A DNA stretch of 64,000 nt, taken from the NCBI GenBank assembly GCA_018334075.1, contig JAGXSC010000044.1:131591-195590 (forward strand), read 5' to 3'. How positions within the stretch are numbered: position 1 is the first letter of the stretch; every line of letters starts with the position of its first letter. The notes under the pieces are model-generated. The model searched no databases and was not told the origin of the DNA. It saw nothing but the letters and a program-made list of their open reading frames with translations. The DNA is from Actinomycetota bacterium (GTDB lineage: Bacteria; Actinomycetota; Coriobacteriia; Anaerosomatales; UBA912). This document shows, one piece after another, positions 3,338 through 21,152 of the stretch. The translations under genes were made by a program, and so were the position numbers.

Positions 3338-4843
3338 TCAGCAGGAAGCGTGACCTGTATCTATCATCGGGCAAAACAGCTCAACGATAGCTGGGTCAAA
3401 CTGCGTGCCGGCGCACCTCTTGAGTTCTTGGATGACCTCTGTAGACGTCATGGCCCGGCGATATGGTCGATGAGCGGTCATGGCCGCAAAAGCGTCTGTG
3501 ACGGCCAGAATCCTGGCTCCAAGCGGAATCTCAGTTCCGGCCAATCTCGCCACATAACCACTGCCATCAAACCGCTCATGATGATGAAGGACGATCGGTA
3601 TGGCTGCCTGCATCACATTGGCCTTCTCAAGGATCTCAGCGGCGAGCAGAGGATGCATCATCAATAATCCTCGTTCGTATGTGGTCAACGGCCCACCGGA
3701 GCCACCTGCGAGCGCCGAAAAATCGATACCCATGTCGTACAGCACGGACGCCACTTCCAGCGCCTCCAGGTCTTCAGGTGCCATGCCAAGCTCGATTCCG
3801 AGTCGCGATGACCACTCGACTACCCGGCTCTTCCCGCCCGCAGCATGCGGATAGTTCAACTCCAAAGCCAAAGCTAATGCTTTCAGTGTGGTTAAATGTG
3901 TTTGCCGAGAGCGCCTTGATCCATCTGCCACTCGCAAGGCGGTGGCAAGATGCGTCAGAAACATATTCAGATGTTCCCGCTGATGGCTCAAAAAGCCTTC
4001 CTGGCTTTTTCTGCCTATATTGATCACGCCGATAAGACCAGAGTCATCCATAATTGGCGAGGAAAGGGCGATAAGGACCCCGTGTCGCCCGCCGTTGGCA
4101 CGTCCGGTCTTGGCGACGTCTTCGATGACCAAAGGTTTTCCTGTAGCAGCGACCCAACCGGATACGCCCTCACCAACCGCTACAGTCGTTCGGCTGCTCA
4201 ACTCCTGTGGTAGGCCGCGAGAAATAGCAATTCGCAGCACCTGTCTGTCTCCATCGAGCAACATGATGCTACCGGTATGACCCTTGAGGAGAGCCATCGC
4301 GTGATTGAGTGCGACACGCAATATCGACTCGGAATCAACTGCAGTGGCCAGCTCCTGAATTCCCAGGGATAAGGCACGTACAGAGTCCTCCCGCGCTTGA
4401 GTGCAATGAAAAGCAAGGGCGCCGAGGAGAACCATCCTGTGATGCTCGACTGCTTGCTCAAATCGCTCTATCTCCGGCAGGGTATCCGATTCTATGCCAA
4501 GGGTCACTACGCCTCGAACCGTGCCAGAGCCAAGTGGCATAGCATACTGCCAAAGCCCCGATGACTCCCCGTGCGTGCTTGTTTCGGGTGCTGCGCGCAG
4601 TATCGACATACCGCTTTCCAGCGCTTCAAGAACGATGTCTCCGTCGGAAAGCTGCTGCGCAACAACCCCGCCCTTTTCATCGCACGATGCGATGATATGA
4701 ACTCGACCGCGATCTGAATCCAATATCCAAAGATTGGCGCTTACAGCTGAAATGTAGGATCTGGAGAAATCAAAAAAAGCGCAGATTACAGCGGAACTAT
4801 CCACTGGATCGAAAAGAGCAGGCTGGGTGCGACTAGCTTTCAT
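3338..4843 (-). CDS. GAF and HD-GYP-like domain protein with degenerate metal site
   Basis: About 501 aa from the chosen ATG (purine-rich GGGTGGGG upstream); the frame stays open to an ATG at 5041, which would add 66 residues without recognisable domain character. One or two GAF-like sensor domains occupy roughly residues 20-320. The C-terminus is an HD-GYP fold: HHHERFDGSGY, ARILAVTDAFAAMTAHRPYR and GTQFDP are all family landmarks of cyclic-di-GMP phosphodiesterases. The usual GHS and HD(I/M)GK metal ligands are replaced by GKS and YDMGID, and GYP reads GYV. It may therefore bind a ligand rather than hydrolyse it. It lies downstream of thiN in the same direction. Confidence 0.8.
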   Translation of the reverse strand: MKASRTQPALFDPVDSSAVICAFFDFSRSYISAVSANLWILDSDRGRVHIIASCDEKGGVVAQQLSDGDIVLEALESGMSILRAAPETSTHGESSGLWQYAMPLGSGTVRGVVTLGIESDTLPEIERFEQAVEHHRMVLLGALAFHCTQAREDSVRALSLGIQELATAVDSESILRVALNHAMALLKGHTGSIMLLDGDRQVLRIAISRGLPQELSSRTTVAVGEGVSGWVAATGKPLVIEDVAKTGRANGGRHGVLIALSSPIMDDSGLIGVINIGRKSQEGFLSHQREHLNMFLTHLATALRVADGSRRSRQTHLTTLKALALALELNYPHAAGGKSRVVEWSSRLGIELGMAPEDLEALEVASVLYDMGIDFSALAGGSGGPLTTYERGLLMMHPLLAAEILEKANVMQAAIPIVLHHHERFDGSGYVARLAGTEIPLGARILAVTDAFAAMTAHRPYRRAMTSTEVIQELKRCAGTQFDPAIVELFCPMIDTGHASC

Positions 4844-10528: not shown

Positions 10529-12958
10529 TTACACCTCCTCTTTGGATTCATCATATTCTTGAGCATCTTCAACCGCCCCGAGCTCGTCGGAAGCAGCAGG
10601 CAATACATCTTTCGGATCAACTCCGGTCACGATGCATAGGCCCGCAAAATGAGGGCCGTCAATCTGGTTCATGAACTCGAAGACAGCCTCTATAGCCGTC
10701 TTGACCTCATCGGGACTCACAGTCGTATCGGTCGCGGGGCTCTCGCTATGTGAGTAGGCGTGCGTGTATCGGGTCAGACGCAGCCGCAGAGCGCCTGCAT
10801 CACCTTGGTAGCCAGCCTCACGAAGAAGATCTGCCGAGTTGTGCATGGCCAGAGTGAAGTTGCCAACCCACTCGGGGTGCTTAAAGGCTAGAAACGTCTC
10901 CAACATTCGTCGGATCACGTTGGGAAACAGCAGCTGCGCATCTAGCCGGTTTTCCATCGAGTCATCAGCCTGGAGATCCTTGAGCTTGTCGACTGTAGCA
11001 ATGAATGCGTGGTGATACGTCGAGCGTACCTTCTTGCGAGTGGCCTCGGTAGGAGGCCACTCGGCGATGACGGGCGAACGCCTCGTCTTGCTCAAGCGCG
11101 TCACATGCTTGGACTTAAGCTCGTAGAACGAAGCCGGGCAGAGGTCCCTCATCTTCTTGCTGGTCGTCTTGTCTCGCCCTGAGTTGTGAAGCGCTTCTAT
11201 CTGTATGTCCCACTGCCGGAATAGCTCGAAGTTGTGGGTCAACAAGATCAGCTGGGCAATGTGATCTTTGACAACTGCTTCGTTCCATATGTAAGTGGAG
11301 ACACCCATGAAGATCTCGTTGTCGAGGCTGGAAACAGGATCATCGATTACGACGATGGGCTTGCCTATGCAGGCATCGCACCGCGCTACCACTTCCAGAA
11401 AGTGAACGAGAGTAACAGCGGTTCGCTCGCCTACGCTAAGTCCAGTGGCTGGTTCGCCGTCTCGAGTCACTTGGTACTTGCCGTCGACGGCCTCGAACTT
11501 CAGTTCGTTTCGCCCAAGCAGCCGCGCAACTTCTTCGGTTAACACCTTGGCACTCGGAGTCGGGTCACCATCAACCGCTTCCAGCGCCGTGACTTGATTG
11601 GTCAGCTTCAAAAGCTCTTCGTTGAGCTTGTCGGCCGCCGCCTTCTGCTTGACCGACTCGGCCTTCTTCCCAGCAACCTCCGACTCGCCCTTCTTCAAGT
11701 AGTGCAGTTCGACGGCCTTCGCTGCAGCTTGAACAACCTCATCGTGCTTAGAGACCCGATCGTTATGTTCATCGCGCAGTTTGATGAATTCTTTGCCTTC
11801 CACGGTCGACGGTGCATCAACCTCGGGATCAACCGGCATCAGAACATTCGCCAGCTTCGCCTCCAACCTCTTCTTAACCCCATTTGTCCATGCCTGTAAG
11901 GAGCCGAGTTCCTCGCGGAGCTTTCCTTCGGATTCGTCGTATCTGGCGCGCAGATCTTCAAGAAACAGGCCCTTGCTCGGTACGGCCCGAAGCGAGGATT
12001 CCACCTTCGACTCGATGCTCGCGAGTTCGGTCATGATTCCGCGCAACTCGCGCTGCAGTTGTTGCACGGCATCCGAAAAATGCTGATCAATCTGGGAACG
12101 GCGCTCATCGCTGAGAGAAGATCCGCAAAAAATACACGTATCCACTCCTTCGTGGTGGTGCCGACCTTGATCCACCCATTCGGTGGCGTCCGGGTGTGTC
12201 TGCAACGTGTCGAGGATGATCGTGCTAGGCGTGGTCCCGAGTGCAGCCGAGATTCTGTGCCGGATGTCGTCCGGTACGCTGACCACCAGCTCTTCTTCGG
12301 GAAGCGCCTCCGCTTTGTCAGCGTTGATGATCCCCGTCTTCTCCTGGAATTCCTGCTTAGTAAGCTCAGTCCAAGTCGCGTGGTCTTGGCCGAACATCGT
12401 TCGGACCATGCGTGTGCTGAAATTGCTGCGGGAGTGATACCTGCCCCCGGCCTTGCTGGCGGCATCGACGACCTGCTGTGACACCCGGCTGTAGGTAGTC
12501 TCTATCGCCTGATTGGCAGCACGCTCCGTATCCACTGCAGCGTCGCGCTCTGCGGTCTTCGCGGCGACCGTCGTTCGCAGATATTCGAGCTGTTTCTCCA
12601 CGTCGGCTGCCTTCTCGCCGATCGTGAGTACAGCAGTCATCTCTGCTTCTGCGGGCGTGAACTTGTGGCTTCTAGACACATAGCACTCACTGAACACATG
12701 AACCCGCTCGAAGAACGGGTTGTCATTACCGTTGGTCGCTATTGAGGTTCCATTGTCATCGATGGTCACCGACAACTTCTTGTAGCCTTTTCCGTCGTCG
12801 GCGTTTCGCAATCCGTCAAGTGCATCCGAGAGTGAGGTCTTGCCGGTGCCGTTGGATCCATAGATCACGTTGATCCGAGCGAGATCGGGGAGACCCGCGC
12901 CCCAGCGGTAATCCTCAAAGATGCCGCAGGCCTTAATGGAGTCCAGCTTGCGGAGCAT
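10529..12958 (-). CDS. AAA_13 ATPase, candidate RloC/PrrC-like anticodon nuclease
   Basis: About 809 aa from the ATG at 12958 (GGAG 6 nt upstream; an ATG at 12970 is also in frame). Numbering from the 12970 ATG: Walker [10 protein letters not shown] at 38-46, a long coiled-coil middle with CIFCGSSL (Cys279, Cys282) like the zinc hook of RloC, ABC signature LSVGERTA at 511 and Walker [12 protein letters not shown] near 541. This is the split ABC ATPase layout of AAA_13/PrrC/RloC proteins. The C-terminal domain (about 640-775) has RRMLE (Arg687, Glu691) and RYTHAYSH (Arg734...His741), compatible with a HEPN-type RNase and with the Arg-Glu-His order of the PrrC tRNA-cleaving triad. The start overlaps the end of res. 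Such nucleases guard restriction systems by cleaving tRNA when restriction is inactivated. Confidence 0.72.
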
Positions 12959-15936
12959 CACAATCTCCATTCATCCGGCACGCTGACCGCATAGCCCGGG
13001 ACGGTATCAGTGCCAATGCCCAGCTGCTTGAAGTGTTCCGTTGCGGCCTTGATCTTGGCGTTCTCAGTCGGGCGGCGCTTGGACTCATCCCACGTGCTCT
13101 TGGTCTCGCGGATCATATAGATACGATCCTCGCCATTCTCGTCCTGCTTGATAATCGCCCAGTCAGGGTTATACGGCCCCACGGGCGTCTCGATCTTGAA
13201 CTTGCTGGGCAGCTTCATGAAGAACTTCACGTCTTCGCGCGAGTCCAGTTTTGCAGCGAACTGGCGCTCCGGCGCATCTGCCCCTTCAGAGTCAATCTGG
13301 ATGTAGTCGAAGTCGGTCTTCTCGGTGTGCTCGACCTTGTAGACGCGATCCAGGAACAGGTCACGCTCTTCGGCGCCGTCAGCCTGCAGTTCGCGCAACT
13401 CGTAAACGTAGCCGCCGATCTTCTCGTACTGAACGCCTTCCTGAATGGCGGCGGCCACCACGTTTTGCAGGTTGCGCTTGACCATCGCTATGAAGTCGTT
13501 GGGATTGCCGATGAACTCATCAAGCTTGCCCGAGCGCGTTAACACGTCCACCAGTGTTTTGCGAGTGAGTGACGTTGCCTCCTGCAGCTCAGCAATGATG
13601 TCGGGCAGCTGGTAAGTACCTGCCAACTCCGCCGCCCGCGTGGCAGTCTCCGATGTCTTCGTGCCGCCACGCACCAACTTCACGCCTGCACGGGTTACTT
13701 GTACTCGAAGAGGCAGAATGGGCTGCTCAGCCTTGATCCTGTTGACGGCGTTTTCGATGACTTCATCTCGCTTGAGCGTCACGCGGTAGGTGGTCTTCTG
13801 CGAAATTGTGCGCCAGAAGTCCTCGAACCACGGCGACGAGTAGATCTCCTTGTTCAACTTGCGCGACACACGTTTGCGCTGAGTCTTCACGATGCGCTCG
13901 ATGCGACAGTTGAGCATCACATCGATGATGTCGTCTTGGGGCCAGAAGAAGTCGGGCACTGGGCCGAGTGTGAAGCCGAGCGTTTCGGGACGGAAGTTCG
14001 CGGTGACTTTGCCTTCCTTGTCGATGAAGCTACGTTCGACCAATTCGTCCCAGATCAACTTGGAGCCTTGGAAACCCAGGCGCTTTTCCTCGCCAGTGAC
14101 TTCATCCGTCGTCCAAATCTTGGCAAATTCACCGGGACGTACCAAGCCGATGCTAACGCCAGAATCGCGGTACTCCTTCTGCAGGCTGTCAGCGAACTCG
14201 CGATACGATTCGTTGGCCACGACGGTCAGTTGCGCGATGCCCTTGTCGGGCACCCTCTCACCAGATTGGTTAACCGGCAGACGCAAACCACGTCCAATTG
14301 TCTGGCGACGCTCAGTGGCTTCACCCATCTCCCGTAGAGCGCAGATCTGAAAGACGTTGGGGTTGTCCCAACCCTCTCGCAGAGCGGAGTGGCTAAAGAT
14401 GAACCGCACCGGCTCACTTTCATCCAGCAACCGCGCCTTGTCGCGCATGATCAAGTCGTAGGCATCATCATCAGCCTTCGAGGTACCGCTAGTGTCTTTG
14501 AACGTGTCATGCTGACCTTTCTTGCCTTTGATAGCCGAGAAATAAGCGCGGCGGTACTCAACCGGGTCGAGAGGTAACGCTTCCATCCATTTGCTATTCT
14601 TCGAACGTTCCTCTACTAGCAGCTCATCGAACCACATCACGAAATCACCGTTAGCTGTGTTGTTGCTGTACCCATCGCCGAGAAAGCTCGCGACCTTATC
14701 CACAAAAAACAGGCTGAGCACCTTGATGCCGTGCGGTCGAAGCATCTCCTCTTTGCGCAGGTGTTCACGAATTGTCTCGCGGATCATCTCGCGGTAGATG
14801 GAATCGTTGGAGCCACCGATGGTCTCACCCGCCTGAATCCACCCATGCGGGAACAGCTCGACTGATTCAGGCTCGATGCTCAGCTCATTGACCCGCCAGC
14901 CTTCATAGGCGGAGTTATCAGTGACCAGTGCGAGGTCCTGGCCGTTCTTGACGTTCAGCGTCTTGCGCTTGATGGCACCACCCGTCTTATAACGCACGGC
15001 CAATTCCATGCAGGCAAGAAAACCCCTGTCATTACGAACTGACTGGAGCTTTACGTACGGCGTGGCATCAGCGCCTTCCTGTAGGGCTTCGGCCACCACG
15101 ATCTGTTTGACCAAGCCAAGTTCGTGAGCGTCAACAGGGTCAAGCCGGTAAACAACGTTGCGCGTCTTGCGATGCGTTGCCGAGTATCGAAGGGTGCACA
15201 ACGGATTGAGTTCCCCTACTGCAGACTGGCTCAGTAACGACTCCATGTTCTGCGGCTCGTCCATGATGAGCACCGGATGTGTGGCCTTCAGGTAGTCGAT
15301 GGGCCGCAGTCCGTTGAGCTTTTCGCGGGTCTGGTAAATAACACGTGTGTTTTTGTCACCACGCAGCGAGTCGATGGTCATTACCATGATCTGCACACTC
15401 GTGGAAGTGGCGAAGGACTGGACCTCTTCCGGCGTGCTGCCGCTGTAAACGAACAAATCGAACGGCGTGGCGTAGAGGTCTTTGAAGTGATTGGTCATCA
15501 GCTTGATGCTGGTGGTCACACCCTCACGGATGGCGACGCTCGGCACGAGGATAATGAATTTGGTGAAGTTGTAGTTCCTGGCCAGTTCGAAGATGGTACG
15601 CAGATACACATACGTCTTACCGGTGCCGGTCTCCATCTCGATGTCGAAATCTAGCGATCCCCCAGCCAGCTCACTCACTACTTCGAGGCCGTTGCGGTCC
15701 TGCACGGCTTGTAGATTCTGCAATATGGTGGCTTCGTCGAGTATTAGGTTGTTGCCGACCGCGCCGACCTCGCTGGCTATCTCAAAAGCCCGCACTTGGT
15801 CACCGGAGTCCGGCGTCATGCCCTGTAATGTCGTCATCAGCGACGCAGCGTCACTGGGCTGGCCATCGAATAGATCAACCACTGCGGCAATGGCGTCCTG
15901 CTGAAACTCCTGGTGGGCATCAAACTTGAACTCCAT
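12958..15936 (-). CDS. res: Type III restriction endonuclease, Res subunit
   Basis: 992 aa superfamily 2 helicase-nuclease. Visible motifs: Walker A METGTGKTY at 101-109, the DEPQ box at 226-229, motif VI ATERRQTIGRGLRLPVN around residue 570, and a C-terminal PD-(D/E)XK nuclease with NPDWAIIK followed by RETKS. With Mod it forms a type III restriction enzyme that translocates or diffuses between inversely oriented unmethylated sites and cuts DNA about 25 bp away. Mod lies immediately upstream and the AAA_13 gene overlaps its 3' end by 1-13 nt, implying a single operon. Length is typical for Res, and no motif is broken. Confidence 0.93.
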   Translation of the reverse strand: MEFKFDAHQEFQQDAIAAVVDLFDGQPSDAASLMTTLQGMTPDSGDQVRAFEIASEVGAVGNNLILDEATILQNLQAVQDRNGLEVVSELAGGSLDFDIEMETGTGKTYVYLRTIFELARNYNFTKFIILVPSVAIREGVTTSIKLMTNHFKDLYATPFDLFVYSGSTPEEVQSFATSTSVQIMVMTIDSLRGDKNTRVIYQTREKLNGLRPIDYLKATHPVLIMDEPQNMESLLSQSAVGELNPLCTLRYSATHRKTRNVVYRLDPVDAHELGLVKQIVVAEALQEGADATPYVKLQSVRNDRGFLACMELAVRYKTGGAIKRKTLNVKNGQDLALVTDNSAYEGWRVNELSIEPESVELFPHGWIQAGETIGGSNDSIYREMIRETIREHLRKEEMLRPHGIKVLSLFFVDKVASFLGDGYSNNTANGDFVMWFDELLVEERSKNSKWMEALPLDPVEYRRAYFSAIKGKKGQHDTFKDTSGTSKADDDAYDLIMRDKARLLDESEPVRFIFSHSALREGWDNPNVFQICALREMGEATERRQTIGRGLRLPVNQSGERVPDKGIAQLTVVANESYREFADSLQKEYRDSGVSIGLVRPGEFAKIWTTDEVTGEEKRLGFQGSKLIWDELVERSFIDKEGKVTANFRPETLGFTLGPVPDFFWPQDDIIDVMLNCRIERIVKTQRKRVSRKLNKEIYSSPWFEDFWRTISQKTTYRVTLKRDEVIENAVNRIKAEQPILPLRVQVTRAGVKLVRGGTKTSETATRAAELAGTYQLPDIIAELQEATSLTRKTLVDVLTRSGKLDEFIGNPNDFIAMVKRNLQNVVAAAIQEGVQYEKIGGYVYELRELQADGAEERDLFLDRVYKVEHTEKTDFDYIQIDSEGADAPERQFAAKLDSREDVKFFMKLPSKFKIETPVGPYNPDWAIIKQDENGEDRIYMIRETKSTWDESKRRPTENAKIKAATEHFKQLGIGTDTVPGYAVSVPDEWRL

Positions 15937-15938
15937 CG

Positions 15939-17852
15939 TTAGGCCGTCCAGAGTTCCACGCCGCGTGACCTACATTCTTGAACAAGGTTGGTTTTGAGCT
16001 CGTCATCACCGTGGAATACGTCTTCGAGGATGATGAGGCGGGCTGGCTTTTCGGCAATTACCACACGCAGCTGCTCTAGTGACGGCTTGGTGCGCTCGTC
16101 GAGGTACGCGAGCACAAGTCCCTCACCGACTGTCTTGAGCTTGAGGCCCGAGACTTCAGTGTCCCCGATCCGCTCGGTGAGTGAATAGCCCTGCTTGAGC
16201 AAGATCTCGGTCAGCAAGGCCTCAGGCGTTGCCTCGTCAGCCGCGCTGTCGCGCAAGTCGAGTAGGTGCTGCTCTAGCGTTGTTGCATCTGTCTCGCTTG
16301 CCACGCGCCACTTCGAGAAGTTGGTGTCAGCGAGGCAGTACGCGCGAAATCCTAAGTCTAGCGGAGTCTCGCGCAAATCCAATCGCGTCGAGTCTTCGTC
16401 GGCAATGTGCTCCGCAGCGAGCTCAATGCGACGTCGTGAAATCTCTGCGATCGTTTCGAAACCCGCACTGCGAGCGATAGAACCTTCGGGGGTCGGTTCA
16501 GGCAGCTGAACCTGGATATGAACTCGATTCCCGCCATCGACGAGATTCTGCTTCATCACGGCGTGCGCTGTCGTTCCTGAGCCAGAGAAAAAGTCTAGGA
16601 TGATCGAATCTCTGTCAGAGCCGATCTGGATTACCCGTTGGATCAGCCCAGTCGGCTTGGGCGAATCGAATACCTTCTGGCCGTCGAAGAGTCCGCGAAC
16701 CTCACGCGTGCCCTTCTTATTGCCGTCCACGTCGGTCCAGAGGTTCGACGGACGCTTGTCGCGACCTTCAAGGTAGAACTTCTGATAGGGATGCCATTCA
16801 GCCACAGAGCTGCGCTCGATCAGCCTCCACTCGACGAGTCCCTCGGCTTCCATCTCCGCGAAACGGCTCCTGCCGCAGATCCATCGGCTCTCATACCCGC
16901 CAGGACCAATCGGGAACACCTCTACGCCATCTGGGGACTTCACCCCGTAATACATACTCGGCCTGTCTTCACGCCGGTCCTCGCCTCCCGTGCGGCGGAG
17001 GGAACGTGTGAGGTACTTGCCGCGCGCATCCTCCTCGTTGTAGATGGCGGCATCGCTCTCGCCAAACTCCAATCCATTCAGTATCGCAACAGGACTTCGG
17101 CGATAGACAACCATGAAGTCAACGGTGTTCGTCAGCCCGTCGAACCCACCACCCGTCGGAGTACCTGTCGCTCGCGTGATGAGACCGACAAAGTTCGACT
17201 CACCGAACACCTCATTTCCAAGCTTGCGCAGGTTATCGAGTTCGTGATCATCGATAGCGATGAAGATGACGCCATCTTCCGTCAGCAGGTTTCTTGCGAG
17301 CTTGAGTCGCGGGTACATCATGTTGAGCCAGTTAGAGTGATAGCGACCCTCGGTCTCGCTGTTGGTACTGACCTTCTTGCCTTCCTCGTTGACCTGGCGG
17401 GTCCACTCCAGATAGGTTTCCAGCCCCTCTTTGTAGTTATCGGGGTACACAAAGTCCCTACCGGTGTTGTACGGGGGATCGATGTATATCATCTTGATCT
17501 TGCCGTGATAGTGCTTCTGCAGGATCTTGAGCACTTCGAGGTTGTCGCCCTCGATGAAGACATTCTTGGTGGTGTCCCAGTCCTTCGAGTTCTCGAAGTC
17601 GGGCTTCAGCGTCGCCGTGGTAGGCTCCTGCGCTGCACGCAGCGCGCGTTTCTTGCCCGGCCAGAACAACCCGAAGCGCTCACGGTCGTCACCCGCATCG
17701 TCACCAAGGAGCTCCTTGAGCTTCTCGACATCGACCTTGCCATCGGCAATGGCCTCAGGAATCAGCTCAGAGAGTTGCGCGGCAAGCTCAGTCTTGAAGT
17801 TCGGTGTAGTGCGCGGGGTTTCATGGATGTCCTGTAAATCGTCACTGCTCAT
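15939..17852 (-). CDS. mod: Type III DNA methyltransferase, Mod subunit
   Basis: 637 aa adenine-N6 methyltransferase. The catalytic motif DPPYNTG sits at 125-131 and the S-adenosylmethionine motif FFSGSGTTAH at 421-430, so motif IV precedes motif I as in the beta class that type III Mod enzymes use. The central part between them holds the target recognition region, so the recognised sequence cannot be read off. Mod protects host DNA and also supplies sequence recognition for Res, whose gene begins 2 nt downstream. A purine-rich site precedes the ATG. No simple-sequence repeat suggesting phase variation is visible in the gene. Confidence 0.92.
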   Translation of the reverse strand: MSSDDLQDIHETPRTTPNFKTELAAQLSELIPEAIADGKVDVEKLKELLGDDAGDDRERFGLFWPGKKRALRAAQEPTTATLKPDFENSKDWDTTKNVFIEGDNLEVLKILQKHYHGKIKMIYIDPPYNTGRDFVYPDNYKEGLETYLEWTRQVNEEGKKVSTNSETEGRYHSNWLNMMYPRLKLARNLLTEDGVIFIAIDDHELDNLRKLGNEVFGESNFVGLITRATGTPTGGGFDGLTNTVDFMVVYRRSPVAILNGLEFGESDAAIYNEEDARGKYLTRSLRRTGGEDRREDRPSMYYGVKSPDGVEVFPIGPGGYESRWICGRSRFAEMEAEGLVEWRLIERSSVAEWHPYQKFYLEGRDKRPSNLWTDVDGNKKGTREVRGLFDGQKVFDSPKPTGLIQRVIQIGSDRDSIILDFFSGSGTTAHAVMKQNLVDGGNRVHIQVQLPEPTPEGSIARSAGFETIAEISRRRIELAAEHIADEDSTRLDLRETPLDLGFRAYCLADTNFSKWRVASETDATTLEQHLLDLRDSAADEATPEALLTEILLKQGYSLTERIGDTEVSGLKLKTVGEGLVLAYLDERTKPSLEQLRVVIAEKPARLIILEDVFHGDDELKTNLVQECRSRGVELWTA

Positions 17853-18299: not shown

Positions 18300-18375
18300 T
18301 GGTGGAGCCTAGGGGGATCGAACCCCTGACCTCTTGGCTGCCAGCCAAGCGCTCTCCCAGCTGAGCTAAGGCCCC
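18300..18375 (-). tRNA. tRNA-Ala (anticodon GGC)
   Basis: A complete 76-nt cloverleaf: acceptor GGGGCCT/AGGCTCC with the alanine identity pair G3-U70 and discriminator A73, D-stem GCTC/GAGC, anticodon stem CTTGG/CCAAG with loop CTGGCAG (anticodon GGC), T-arm AGGGG TTCGATC CCCCT and an encoded CCA. It lies between the ABC cassette and the restriction island, with its 3' end facing the island, the usual orientation for integration at a tRNA gene. Confidence 0.97.
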
Positions 18376-18414
18376 ATCACTGACAAATTGCAACGAGCGT
18401 TAGTATATCAACCA

Positions 18415-18466
18415 TAAGACACAGGTCAAGATTGCGAGCGTCGCGCGCTTATTCGCGCATCATCGC
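18415..18466. repeat. 52-bp direct repeat, copy 1 (distal side of ABC cassette)
   Basis: This 52-bp segment begins TAAGACACAGGTCAAGATTG and matches 20189-20240 at 49 of 52 positions in the same orientation. It lies just outside the ABC permease stop. Read on the minus strand it duplicates the last codons and downstream flank of the EamA gene. Confidence 0.9.
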
Positions 18467-18484
18467 CGCTGTATCCCCGTTATA

Positions 18485-19282
18485 TCAAAGGGGCAACCTT
18501 TTCTTATTAAATACCATCACCGCGCCCGCAAACAGCACAGTAATAATCCCGATGTAGGCTAAGTTTATTCCCCACGCAGCGTCTCCGGCAACCAGGTTGA
18601 CCGGATCATAGAAGCCAAATATGGAGATGTCGGATAGGATCTTCAAGTCGGGCGCGGATCCGCCGAGCATATTCATCAGAAAAAAGGTAACCGGGATTCC
18701 CGCCCCAAAACTAAGCGACAGCCTTGTTTCATTGAACAGGCATGAGAAGAAAAAAGTTATCATCATCACTACCATGTTTACGAGCATCGTTGTTACATTA
18801 AGCCTGAAAAAGGCGTTTATGTTTAGCTCTCCCGGAAACATAGCCTCGGCAAACAGCACACCTACGGTAAATAGTGCTATAAAAAGGATGAGAAGTGATG
18901 TGAGCGCGTAAATGCCTTGGGTGACTATGATTTTGACCCTCGAAGTAGGCGTAGATAGCAGATAGGCGAACGACCCATTGTCTACCATTTTGGCAACTAG
19001 CGCATTGCCCAGAATAATTGAATACACCATAGGGAAGCCAATCATCAACATCCCATAGAGCCAACTGGCCAAATAACCCGTCAGTTCCATGACCAAGGCG
19101 TCAAACCCAAGCGCAGCCCTGAGACCCTCAGGGAATGCCTCGATCATGCCAATCAGCCCCGCCATATCCTCCGGGTTATACATAGAAATCATCGTGGTCA
19201 TATACATGGTCAGCACGCCGAAAAAAATTACAAGTAATGTCCAGCTTCGCTTCAGGGTATATTTGAAAAGGGCTAAGCTCAT
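18485..19282 (-). CDS. ABC-2 type transporter permease
   Basis: 265 aa with about six hydrophobic segments, beginning with a positively charged amphipathic lead (LFKYTLKRSW) typical of ABC-2 permeases. Internal landmarks are FAYLLSTPTSRVKII, the conserved cytoplasmic coupling region, and a C-terminal basic FNKKRLPL. A GGGAG ribosome site precedes the ATG, and the gene starts 7 nt after its ATPase partner. Such pairs export drugs, peptides or lipids; the substrate is unknown. Together with the ATPase it lies between two 52-bp direct repeats and is somewhat more AT-rich than its surroundings, so it may be acquired. Confidence 0.85.
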   Translation of the reverse strand: MSLALFKYTLKRSWTLLVIFFGVLTMYMTTMISMYNPEDMAGLIGMIEAFPEGLRAALGFDALVMELTGYLASWLYGMLMIGFPMVYSIILGNALVAKMVDNGSFAYLLSTPTSRVKIIVTQGIYALTSLLILFIALFTVGVLFAEAMFPGELNINAFFRLNVTTMLVNMVVMMITFFFSCLFNETRLSLSFGAGIPVTFFLMNMLGGSAPDLKILSDISIFGFYDPVNLVAGDAAWGINLAYIGIITVLFAGAVMVFNKKRLPL

Positions 19283-19288
19283 GGCTGC

Positions 19289-20173
19289 TTACTCCCCCTT
19301 ACCGTAATAGTTGATAAAGATGTCCTCAAGAGATTGGTGCTTGACGCTAAAGCTCAGCACTGTAAACTTCGCGGCTGTTTTGAGGAAAGCGTCTACTTTT
19401 TCACCCGATACAACGATTTCGAACACCCCATCCGGCTCAACACGTGTTTCAAAACCCGCAGCTTTAAGTATGCCGGCGGCGACATCAGCTTCGCCGGGCC
19501 TTAGAACGAAAACTTGGCGTTGCTCGCCTTTGAGCTTTCGTACATCCGCCTGCTCAACTATTCTCCCATCCCTGATGATCAGAACACTGTCGCACATCTT
19601 TTCCACTTCTTCGAAAATGTGGCTGGACATAAGAATGGTTTTGCCATTAGCTCTTTCGCGTAAAATAAGCTCTGCAAATCGGTTTTGCATTAAAGGATCA
19701 AGGCCGCTTGTGGGCTCATCCAAGATGAGCACTTCGGGATTGTGCATGAAGGCCGCTACTATTCCGAGCTTTTGCTTCATCCCTTTCGAAAACTTCTTTA
19801 TTTTGCCCTTCGGATCCAGCTCAAACATTTCAAGAAGCCGATCTTTGTGCTCCGCGCTTTTGGTTCCTCGCATGGCACTCATAAAGGACAGGAACTCGTC
19901 ACCGCTCATACCATCAGGGAAAGAGATTTCTCCCGGTATGTAGCCTAATATTTTTTGTATCTGCGGCGCCTGCTCAGCGCAATCAAGATCCCCTAGTCGG
20001 CACTTGCCGCTGTTTGGCCGCATGAAGCCCAGAAGCGCCCTGATCGTGGTGGTTTTGCCCGACCCGTTAGGGCCTAAATAGCCCATCACCACCCCTTCTG
20101 GAACAGTAAAGTTTAAATCAAAAACCCCTTTTCCGTTTGGGTAGGTAAGAGTCAACCCTGAAACGGTAATCAT
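19289..20173 (-). CDS. ABC transporter ATP-binding protein
   Basis: About 294 aa. The nucleotide-binding domain shows Walker A GPNGSGKTTTIRALLG near residue 37, signature FSKGMKQKLG near 134 and Walker B VLILDEPTSGLD near 155, followed by SSHIFEEVEKMCD (H-loop). A C-terminal extension of about 80 residues matches DrrA/CcmA-type exporters. The ATG at 20173 follows a strong GGGAGGAG site; the frame is open to 20203. It energises the permease encoded immediately downstream. The promoter must lie within or very near the 52-bp repeat, or transcription comes from the EamA gene. Confidence 0.92.
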   Translation of the reverse strand: MITVSGLTLTYPNGKGVFDLNFTVPEGVVMGYLGPNGSGKTTTIRALLGFMRPNSGKCRLGDLDCAEQAPQIQKILGYIPGEISFPDGMSGDEFLSFMSAMRGTKSAEHKDRLLEMFELDPKGKIKKFSKGMKQKLGIVAAFMHNPEVLILDEPTSGLDPLMQNRFAELILRERANGKTILMSSHIFEEVEKMCDSVLIIRDGRIVEQADVRKLKGEQRQVFVLRPGEADVAAGILKAAGFETRVEPDGVFEIVVSGEKVDAFLKTAAKFTVLSFSVKHQSLEDIFINYYGKGE

Positions 20174-20188
20174 AAATACTCCTCCCTG

Positions 20189-20240
20189 TAAGACACAGGT
20201 CAAGATTGCAAGCGTCGCGCACTTATTCGCGTATCATCGC
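20189..20240. repeat. 52-bp direct repeat, copy 2 (overlaps the EamA gene 3' end)
   Basis: Direct-repeat partner of 18415-18466 with three substitutions. This copy contains the final codons and stop of the EamA transporter gene (AMIRE then stop on the minus strand) plus its downstream flank, so it is probably the original copy. Confidence 0.9.
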
Positions 20241-21152
20241 TACGCTTGGACCCTCGATCGTAGTCTCATGAACGATAGTGCCTCTATCGGCCTTGCGCAA
20301 CGACACTATCTCGGAAAGTATCATGCCTGCAAGGATGAGCGCCGCTCCCGCAATGGCGCCAATGGTAAACACATCTCCAGCCAGCCAACCAAACACTCCA
20401 CCGAAAGCGGGCTCGGTGATCAGAATCAAAGCGGTTCGAGCTGGCGAAATATGTCGTTGGGCATACGTCTGAACCGCGAATGCGACCGCCGAGGCTAGAA
20501 CGCCGGTAAACAAGATGGCCAGCCATACCGAACCGGCGCCAGGAAGAGCTATCGGCTCGGTGACGAGAGATACACCCGAGCAAACAACCGCCATGAACGC
20601 CAGCTGCACGAAGGTCAAAGGCAGCACCGCATGTCGGCGGCCGATGCTACCCAAAATGATAATGTGAGCCGAATAAGCGAATGCCGCGACCAGAACTGAG
20701 GTGTCCCCCGCCTGCCAGCTGCCATTGTTCCCACCGGAGAGAAACCAAAGCCCGACGAGTGCAATAAGCGCACCGATGGCCACCATGGCGCTCGGCATAC
20801 GGCGAAGTAGTAGCGCTTGAAGCAAGGGAGTGATCACAACGAACATGCCGGTTATAAATGCGGCCCGGCTCGCTGTTGTGCCTTGAAGTCCAATAGTCTG
20901 AAAGACAAAGCCCAGACAGAGGAATGCGCCGGCGAATATCCCGACAGCAATCGTTTTTCGATCAAGCTTCCTTAGGACAGATGGAAATATCAGAAGAAAC
21001 GCTATGACAGCGATCCAGAATCTCCACCCCAGGAAAGCAAAGACGGGATATATCTCGATTGCGTCCTTGACGACAACAAATGTGCCGGCCCAAACAACTG
21101 CGACCCCCACAAGCGCCAGAGAAACCCAGATACGGTTGGTAAAAGCGCTCAT
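20223..21152 (-). CDS. EamA/DMT family permease
   Basis: 309 aa with ten predicted membrane helices arranged as two EamA repeats, the usual drug/metabolite transporter architecture. Visible markers include AVVWAGTFVVVKDAIEIYPVFAFLGWRFW at the start (GTFVVVKDA and FLGWRF), GLQGTTASRAAFITG after helix 3, and SPARTALILITEPAFGG near residue 240. Substrates of this family are usually amino acids or related metabolites, not predictable here. It starts 1 nt after rsfS, at the downstream end of the nadD cluster. Its 3' end lies within the 52-bp repeat. Confidence 0.85.
   Translation of the reverse strand: MSAFTNRIWVSLALVGVAVVWAGTFVVVKDAIEIYPVFAFLGWRFWIAVIAFLLIFPSVLRKLDRKTIAVGIFAGAFLCLGFVFQTIGLQGTTASRAAFITGMFVVITPLLQALLLRRMPSAMVAIGALIALVGLWFLSGGNNGSWQAGDTSVLVAAFAYSAHIIILGSIGRRHAVLPLTFVQLAFMAVVCSGVSLVTEPIALPGAGSVWLAILFTGVLASAVAFAVQTYAQRHISPARTALILITEPAFGGVFGWLAGDVFTIGAIAGAALILAGMILSEIVSLRKADRGTIVHETTIEGPSVAMIRE

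Follow-up and report, generated by a model that had tools for sequence, protein, structure and literature searches.

The window, which is the whole 64-kb stretch of DNA that was analysed, carries a two-gene ABC exporter between an EamA-family transporter gene and a tRNA-Ala (GGC) gene, with one copy of a 52-bp direct repeat at each side of the exporter. All of these features are described on the minus strand. The EamA gene (20223–21152) is an intact host gene upstream of the insert, identified by its ORF, by Pfam model PF00892 and by orthologues in relatives (50–67%). The tRNA-Ala gene (18300–18375; ARAGORN) is the conserved neighbor downstream of EamA, and its promoter (TTGACC-16-TATACT; 18402–18429) was located by a promoter scan and by reconstruction of the empty site in silico, the same motif being present in most relatives. 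The inserted cassette (18467–20188; 1,722 bp, 48% G+C) is delimited by the repeats, by its composition and by homology to a Dethiobacter locus (L053) over 18481–20185. On the 3′ side of tRNA-Ala lies a type III restriction-modification pair (Res, 12958–15936; Mod, 15939–17852; minus strand, spanning 12958–17852), and accessory genes are thus found on both sides of the tRNA gene. The window holds no second copy of the tRNA-Ala 3′ end on the restriction-modification side.

Gene Content of the Cassette and Structure of the Repeats

The region between the repeats consists of one operon encoding an ABC-2 ATPase and a permease, together with a ribosome-binding site, and has no other content. A search of ORFs and Pfam domains finds no transposase or integrase at the site, which bears out the first-pass annotation in its description of a cassette of about 1.7 kb that holds these two genes alone. 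The ATPase (19289–20173; 294 aa from an ATG start) has an ABC_tran domain (PF00005, E 1.1e-23, above the cut-off), and is DrrA/GldA-like in NCBIfam without reaching the models' curated cut-offs; with the best model, drrA, scoring 185.9 bits against a cut-off of 312.45, the pair is not placed in a known substrate subfamily such as DrrAB. The permease (18485–19282; 265 aa) is an ABC-2 membrane protein (PF12679, ABC2_membrane_2; 36.7 bits against a cut-off of 27.2), for which neither an NCBIfam model nor a match in a search of solved structures was found. The ribosome-binding site of the ATPase abuts the EamA-side repeat, and the stop codon of the permease is located 18 bp from the other repeat. 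Because a promoter scan of the minus strand finds no promoter ahead of the operon, and because the operon starts 49 nt past the EamA stop codon, the exporter genes are probably read through from EamA. In one cassette relative (L054), a frame that on inspection is TetR-like is located directly upstream of the exporter, which makes it plausible that this is a regulated exporter.

The tRNA-side repeat (18415–18466) and the EamA-side repeat (20189–20240), defined by a repeat search and by alignment of the copies, are 52 nt each, are in direct orientation 1774 bp apart and are identical at 49 of 52 positions (94%), as had been reported in the first reading of this DNA. The pair is the top direct repeat of the window, and there is no third copy in the 1.89-Mb genome. 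When the 4.5-kb region was simulated 30 times with a Markov-1 model, the best ungapped match of a 52-mer agreed at 29–32 of 52 positions, compared with the 49 observed. The two copies have diverged by 6%, and their longest perfect run is 21 bp. Among 60 relatives, no match to the repeat is longer than 28 bp. The possibility that the repeat is an IS end or an att site used elsewhere was therefore rejected, since the genome has just the two copies and those relatives have no longer match. The 52-mer also lacks GTT on either strand, and hence the GTTRRRY core of an integron attC site.

Read on the minus strand, the repeat comprises the last five codons of EamA (AMIRE) and the stop codon, and then 34 nt of what was once the gap to tRNA-Ala. 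The EamA-side copy completes the EamA gene, in agreement with the earlier statement that one copy holds its last codons. The tRNA-side copy contains orphan EamA end codons and a stop codon, and also the −35 box of tRNA-Ala (18424–18429), and thereby completes the tRNA promoter. The duplication has spared both neighbors: EamA retains its stop codon, and tRNA-Ala retains its full promoter because the −35 box falls inside the duplicated stretch.

The Empty Site and the Source of the Cassette

In relatives from the same order, tRNA-Ala (GGC) is located directly downstream of EamA at 23 of 29 loci, mostly with a similar promoter in the gap, and this uninterrupted arrangement includes both examined genomes of genus g2 in the same family. 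The remaining six loci have longer gaps or inserts, or have no tRNA before the end of the stretch examined. When one repeat and the cassette are removed in silico, EamA is followed by 73 nt and then by tRNA-Ala with an intact TTGACC-16-TATACT promoter, as in the relatives. Because the relatives are uninterrupted and this removal restores their gene order, the sequence comparison identifies the cassette as a lineage-specific insertion between EamA and tRNA-Ala with a 52-bp target duplication. The first-pass annotation, which had suggested a comparison with relatives lacking the ABC genes, is well supported both in its reading of an insertion with flank duplication and in its prediction that loss between the repeats would restore EamA–tRNA-Ala directly.

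The same gap is enlarged in three relatives: by an insert of about 2.1 kb with a 553-aa ORF in G002 (contig C45, L209), by an insert of about 4 kb in G011 (contig C45, L207) whose genes read as thiamine synthesis, and to about 0.5 kb in G012. None of the three has matching flank repeats. The EamA/tRNA-Ala gap may be a tolerant landing site.

The cassette differs from its flank in G+C content (48% vs 56%), and the closest of its 14 relatives in genome contigs are in two Dethiobacter bins. In the permease tree, the window protein nests inside Dethiobacter (Bacillota), grouping with L053 to the exclusion of L052 (support 99/96). Homology to L053 extends over 1,705 bp (18481–20185) at 82.9% nucleotide identity and is gap-free; it stops at the gene ends in both genomes, with unrelated DNA beyond, and its span is almost exactly that of the insert. 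The nested position of the permease and the end of the homology at the gene ends indicate a Dethiobacter-like Bacillota donor, with just two genes transferred or kept. The L053 exporter pair (Dethiobacter sp. CROMO_SB3, JAGXTL010000027.1) has the same two genes in the same order as the cassette, but its neighbors read as PIN-domain toxin-like and endonuclease-III-like genes and it has no flanking repeats. The L053 permease has an in-frame stop near its C-terminus (4810–4812), and this copy may be decaying.

No close copy of the cassette is present in the same-family genomes G001 and G002. A relative with 66% identity (L055) is located beside tRNA-Ser in G003, also of the family UBA912; G+C is 64% on its contig and 55% on the contig with EamA in that bin, and this relative, which may be a contaminant for that reason, is left out of the evidence. 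Permease relatives are absent from viral contigs and phage records, and the three found in plasmids are distant (22–37%); carriage as phage or plasmid cargo was rejected on these grounds. Nothing comparable to the 52-bp repeats surrounds the cassette relatives at the ten loci inspected.

Routes of Joining

A direct target duplication flanking an insert can arise through a transposase, an integrase, a single crossing-over with a circle, template switching, or end joining at a staggered break. The favored route here, held with about even confidence, is capture at a staggered break followed by fill-in and Ku–LigD end joining. As the comparison shows, a 1.7-kb Dethiobacter-like fragment with the ABC-2 exporter operon alone entered between EamA and tRNA-Ala (GGC) in an actinobacterial ancestor. 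The process would begin with a break in which the two strands are cut about 52 bp apart; both overhangs would be filled in, and Ku–LigD end joining would seal the foreign fragment between the filled ends, leaving 52 bp of target on both sides. The genome encodes Ku (PF02735, E 3.8e-40; contig C15), next to which a 782-aa frame reads on inspection as LigD, and Ku is found in 26 of 41 genomes of the order.

In mammalian cells, overhang fill-in and Ku-dependent joining produce small tandem duplications at breaks with 43–49-bp overhangs (PMC8355091). Like the duplication described here, those duplications are direct and about as long as the overhang, and they form independently of sequence and need Ku; the system differs in its mammalian host, its nickase-made breaks, its use of Pol alpha-primase and its lack of a gene-sized insert. 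For bacteria, a passage in PMC7719229, citing Popa 2011, links end joining to gene transfer. Against end joining, the overhang would have to be long, at 52 nt, and the fill-in of the mammalian precedent is performed by other enzymes. Moreover, one sequence cannot reveal a mechanism, and a single crossing-over with a circle or template switching would leave the same footprint; the genome is also a metagenome bin of 78 contigs, which tempers the end-joining case.

In a single crossing-over, a circle carrying the cassette next to the 52-bp stretch would recombine homologously into the chromosome, so that the stretch ends up on each side of the cassette. This would yield exactly the observed layout, and the three mismatches would have been present from the start. 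In Escherichia coli, circles with shortened homology do integrate and leave duplications of 109–950 bp (PMC3240628), and both the transposase-free joining of foreign DNA in that homology-facilitated illegitimate recombination and the direct target duplications left by single crossing-over resemble the present case. That route, however, depends on incoming DNA that is homologous to the target, and the donor relatives show no such homology: the foreign DNA would already have had to hold this particular EamA end and tRNA promoter, yet the Dethiobacter flanks are unrelated. In addition, a 52-bp stretch that matches perfectly over no more than 21 bp is a short substrate for RecA, and a single crossing-over is considered unlikely. 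Template switching during replication, in which a jump to the foreign fragment and a return about 52 bp upstream would cause the stretch to be copied twice, leads to the same product. The junction has TACAGGGAGGA in common with the upstream DNA of L054, which would permit a two-base microhomology, but two bases are no more than expected by chance; this route is judged quite unlikely.

Integrase elements typically have long direct repeats by which the end of the target gene is reconstituted. The repeats could accordingly be the attachment sites of a remnant or non-autonomous element that targets the EamA end, with an excisable cassette, and the position beside a tRNA gene would suit such an element. 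The likeness to tyrosine-integrase elements at gene 3′ ends lies in the long direct repeats that restore the end of the target gene; the site differs in that no integrase gene is present and the insert lies on the promoter side of the tRNA, not at its 3′ end. The genome encodes just two tyrosine recombinases, both of them elsewhere and resembling XerC/XerD. With the repeat found nowhere else in the genome and matched over at most 28 bp in the 60 relatives, and with cassette relatives that lack such repeats, an integrase-type origin is improbable. The same evidence opposes the proposal in the first-pass annotation of an excisable cassette with two states, which is unsupported because there is no recombinase at the site and the repeats are diverged, with no perfect run beyond 21 bp. 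Rare deletion between the repeats is possible, as for any direct repeat. The misjoining of a foreign contig during assembly might be suspected in a metagenome bin with a cassette of foreign composition. However, both junctions lie inside a 52-bp stretch that is native to the locus, the copies differ at three positions, the Dethiobacter homology ends where the two genes end and gives way to unrelated DNA, and the cassette is well inside a 199-kb contig; an assembly artifact is thus very improbable. Capture at a staggered break with Ku–LigD end joining accordingly stays the favored route, on the terms given above.

Similar Cases in the Genome and Implications

To see whether the layout recurs, 1.886 Mb of the genome, assembled from contig stretches, was scanned for two-copy direct repeats. 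Most of these are paralogs or tandem copies, and an inverted-repeat control scan of the genome found one pair compared with 39 direct pairs, an excess that is mostly explained by tandem gene copies. The clearest other case is a 54-bp direct repeat on contig C27 (5939–5992 and 7441–7494), which is 100% identical between copies, holds the 3′ end and stop codon of a VapC-like gene, and flanks a foreign-looking 369-aa ORF (G+C 54% vs 63%). In G001 and G003, the end of VapC leads directly into 12 nt or more of the sequence that lies beyond the far C27 repeat, as expected of an empty site. Because genomes of different genera share the VapBC region at 97% identity, the C27 region is either mobile or a shared contaminant. 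It is possibly a second case of flank duplication of the end-joining type.

A weaker candidate is a 90-bp direct repeat on contig C74 (6975–7064 and 8345–8434), which starts in the 3′ end of tRNA-Ala (TGC), spans its terminator and flanks an ORF for a radical-SAM-like protein of 410 aa; it fits a classical integrase scar equally well. Together, the C27 and C74 cases make a general process possible without establishing one.

The scan also brought out repeats of other kinds. On contig C74, 85-bp repeats (11996–12080 and 14410–14494) whose ends are attC-like (GTCCAAC/TTCCAAC and GTTAGGC) lie on either side of a pair that reads as an AAA ATPase and an RloB-like protein, possibly a defense system in an integron-type cassette; no integron integrase was found. 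A 140-bp repeat (94%) on contig C1 (8590–8729 and 10716–10855) covers the start and signal-peptide region in two genes for secreted proteins that differ in all other respects, and contigs C14 and C22 have many-copy short direct repeats of about 38–40 nt, which are CRISPR-like arrays or similar. Several small contigs (such as C2, C26, C48, C57, and C73) have 34–38% G+C in a bin of 56% and are probably mobile DNA or contamination.

The horizontal insertion at EamA/tRNA-Ala is real and well resolved; it has duplicated an unusually long stretch of its target and carries no genes of a mobile element. It is best regarded as an unusually clear footprint of ordinary gene acquisition, not as a new mobile element, and its joining mechanism is a reasoned proposal. 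Most bacterial gene transfers leave no trace of the joining. In this case the empty arrangement can be read, as can the donor group and both junctions; this makes the joining step open to testing, and a 52-bp duplication without a recombinase points to break repair. A broader and rather doubtful proposal is that bacteria of this order repeatedly gain naked cassettes in a transposase-free manner, through staggered breaks, fill-in and Ku–LigD joining, with gene-end duplications of about 50 bp as the signature and the EamA/tRNA-Ala and C27 loci as two instances. If genomes that encode Ku and LigD were to show long flank duplications more often than genomes that lack them, such duplications would provide a simple sequence marker of gene gain by end joining.
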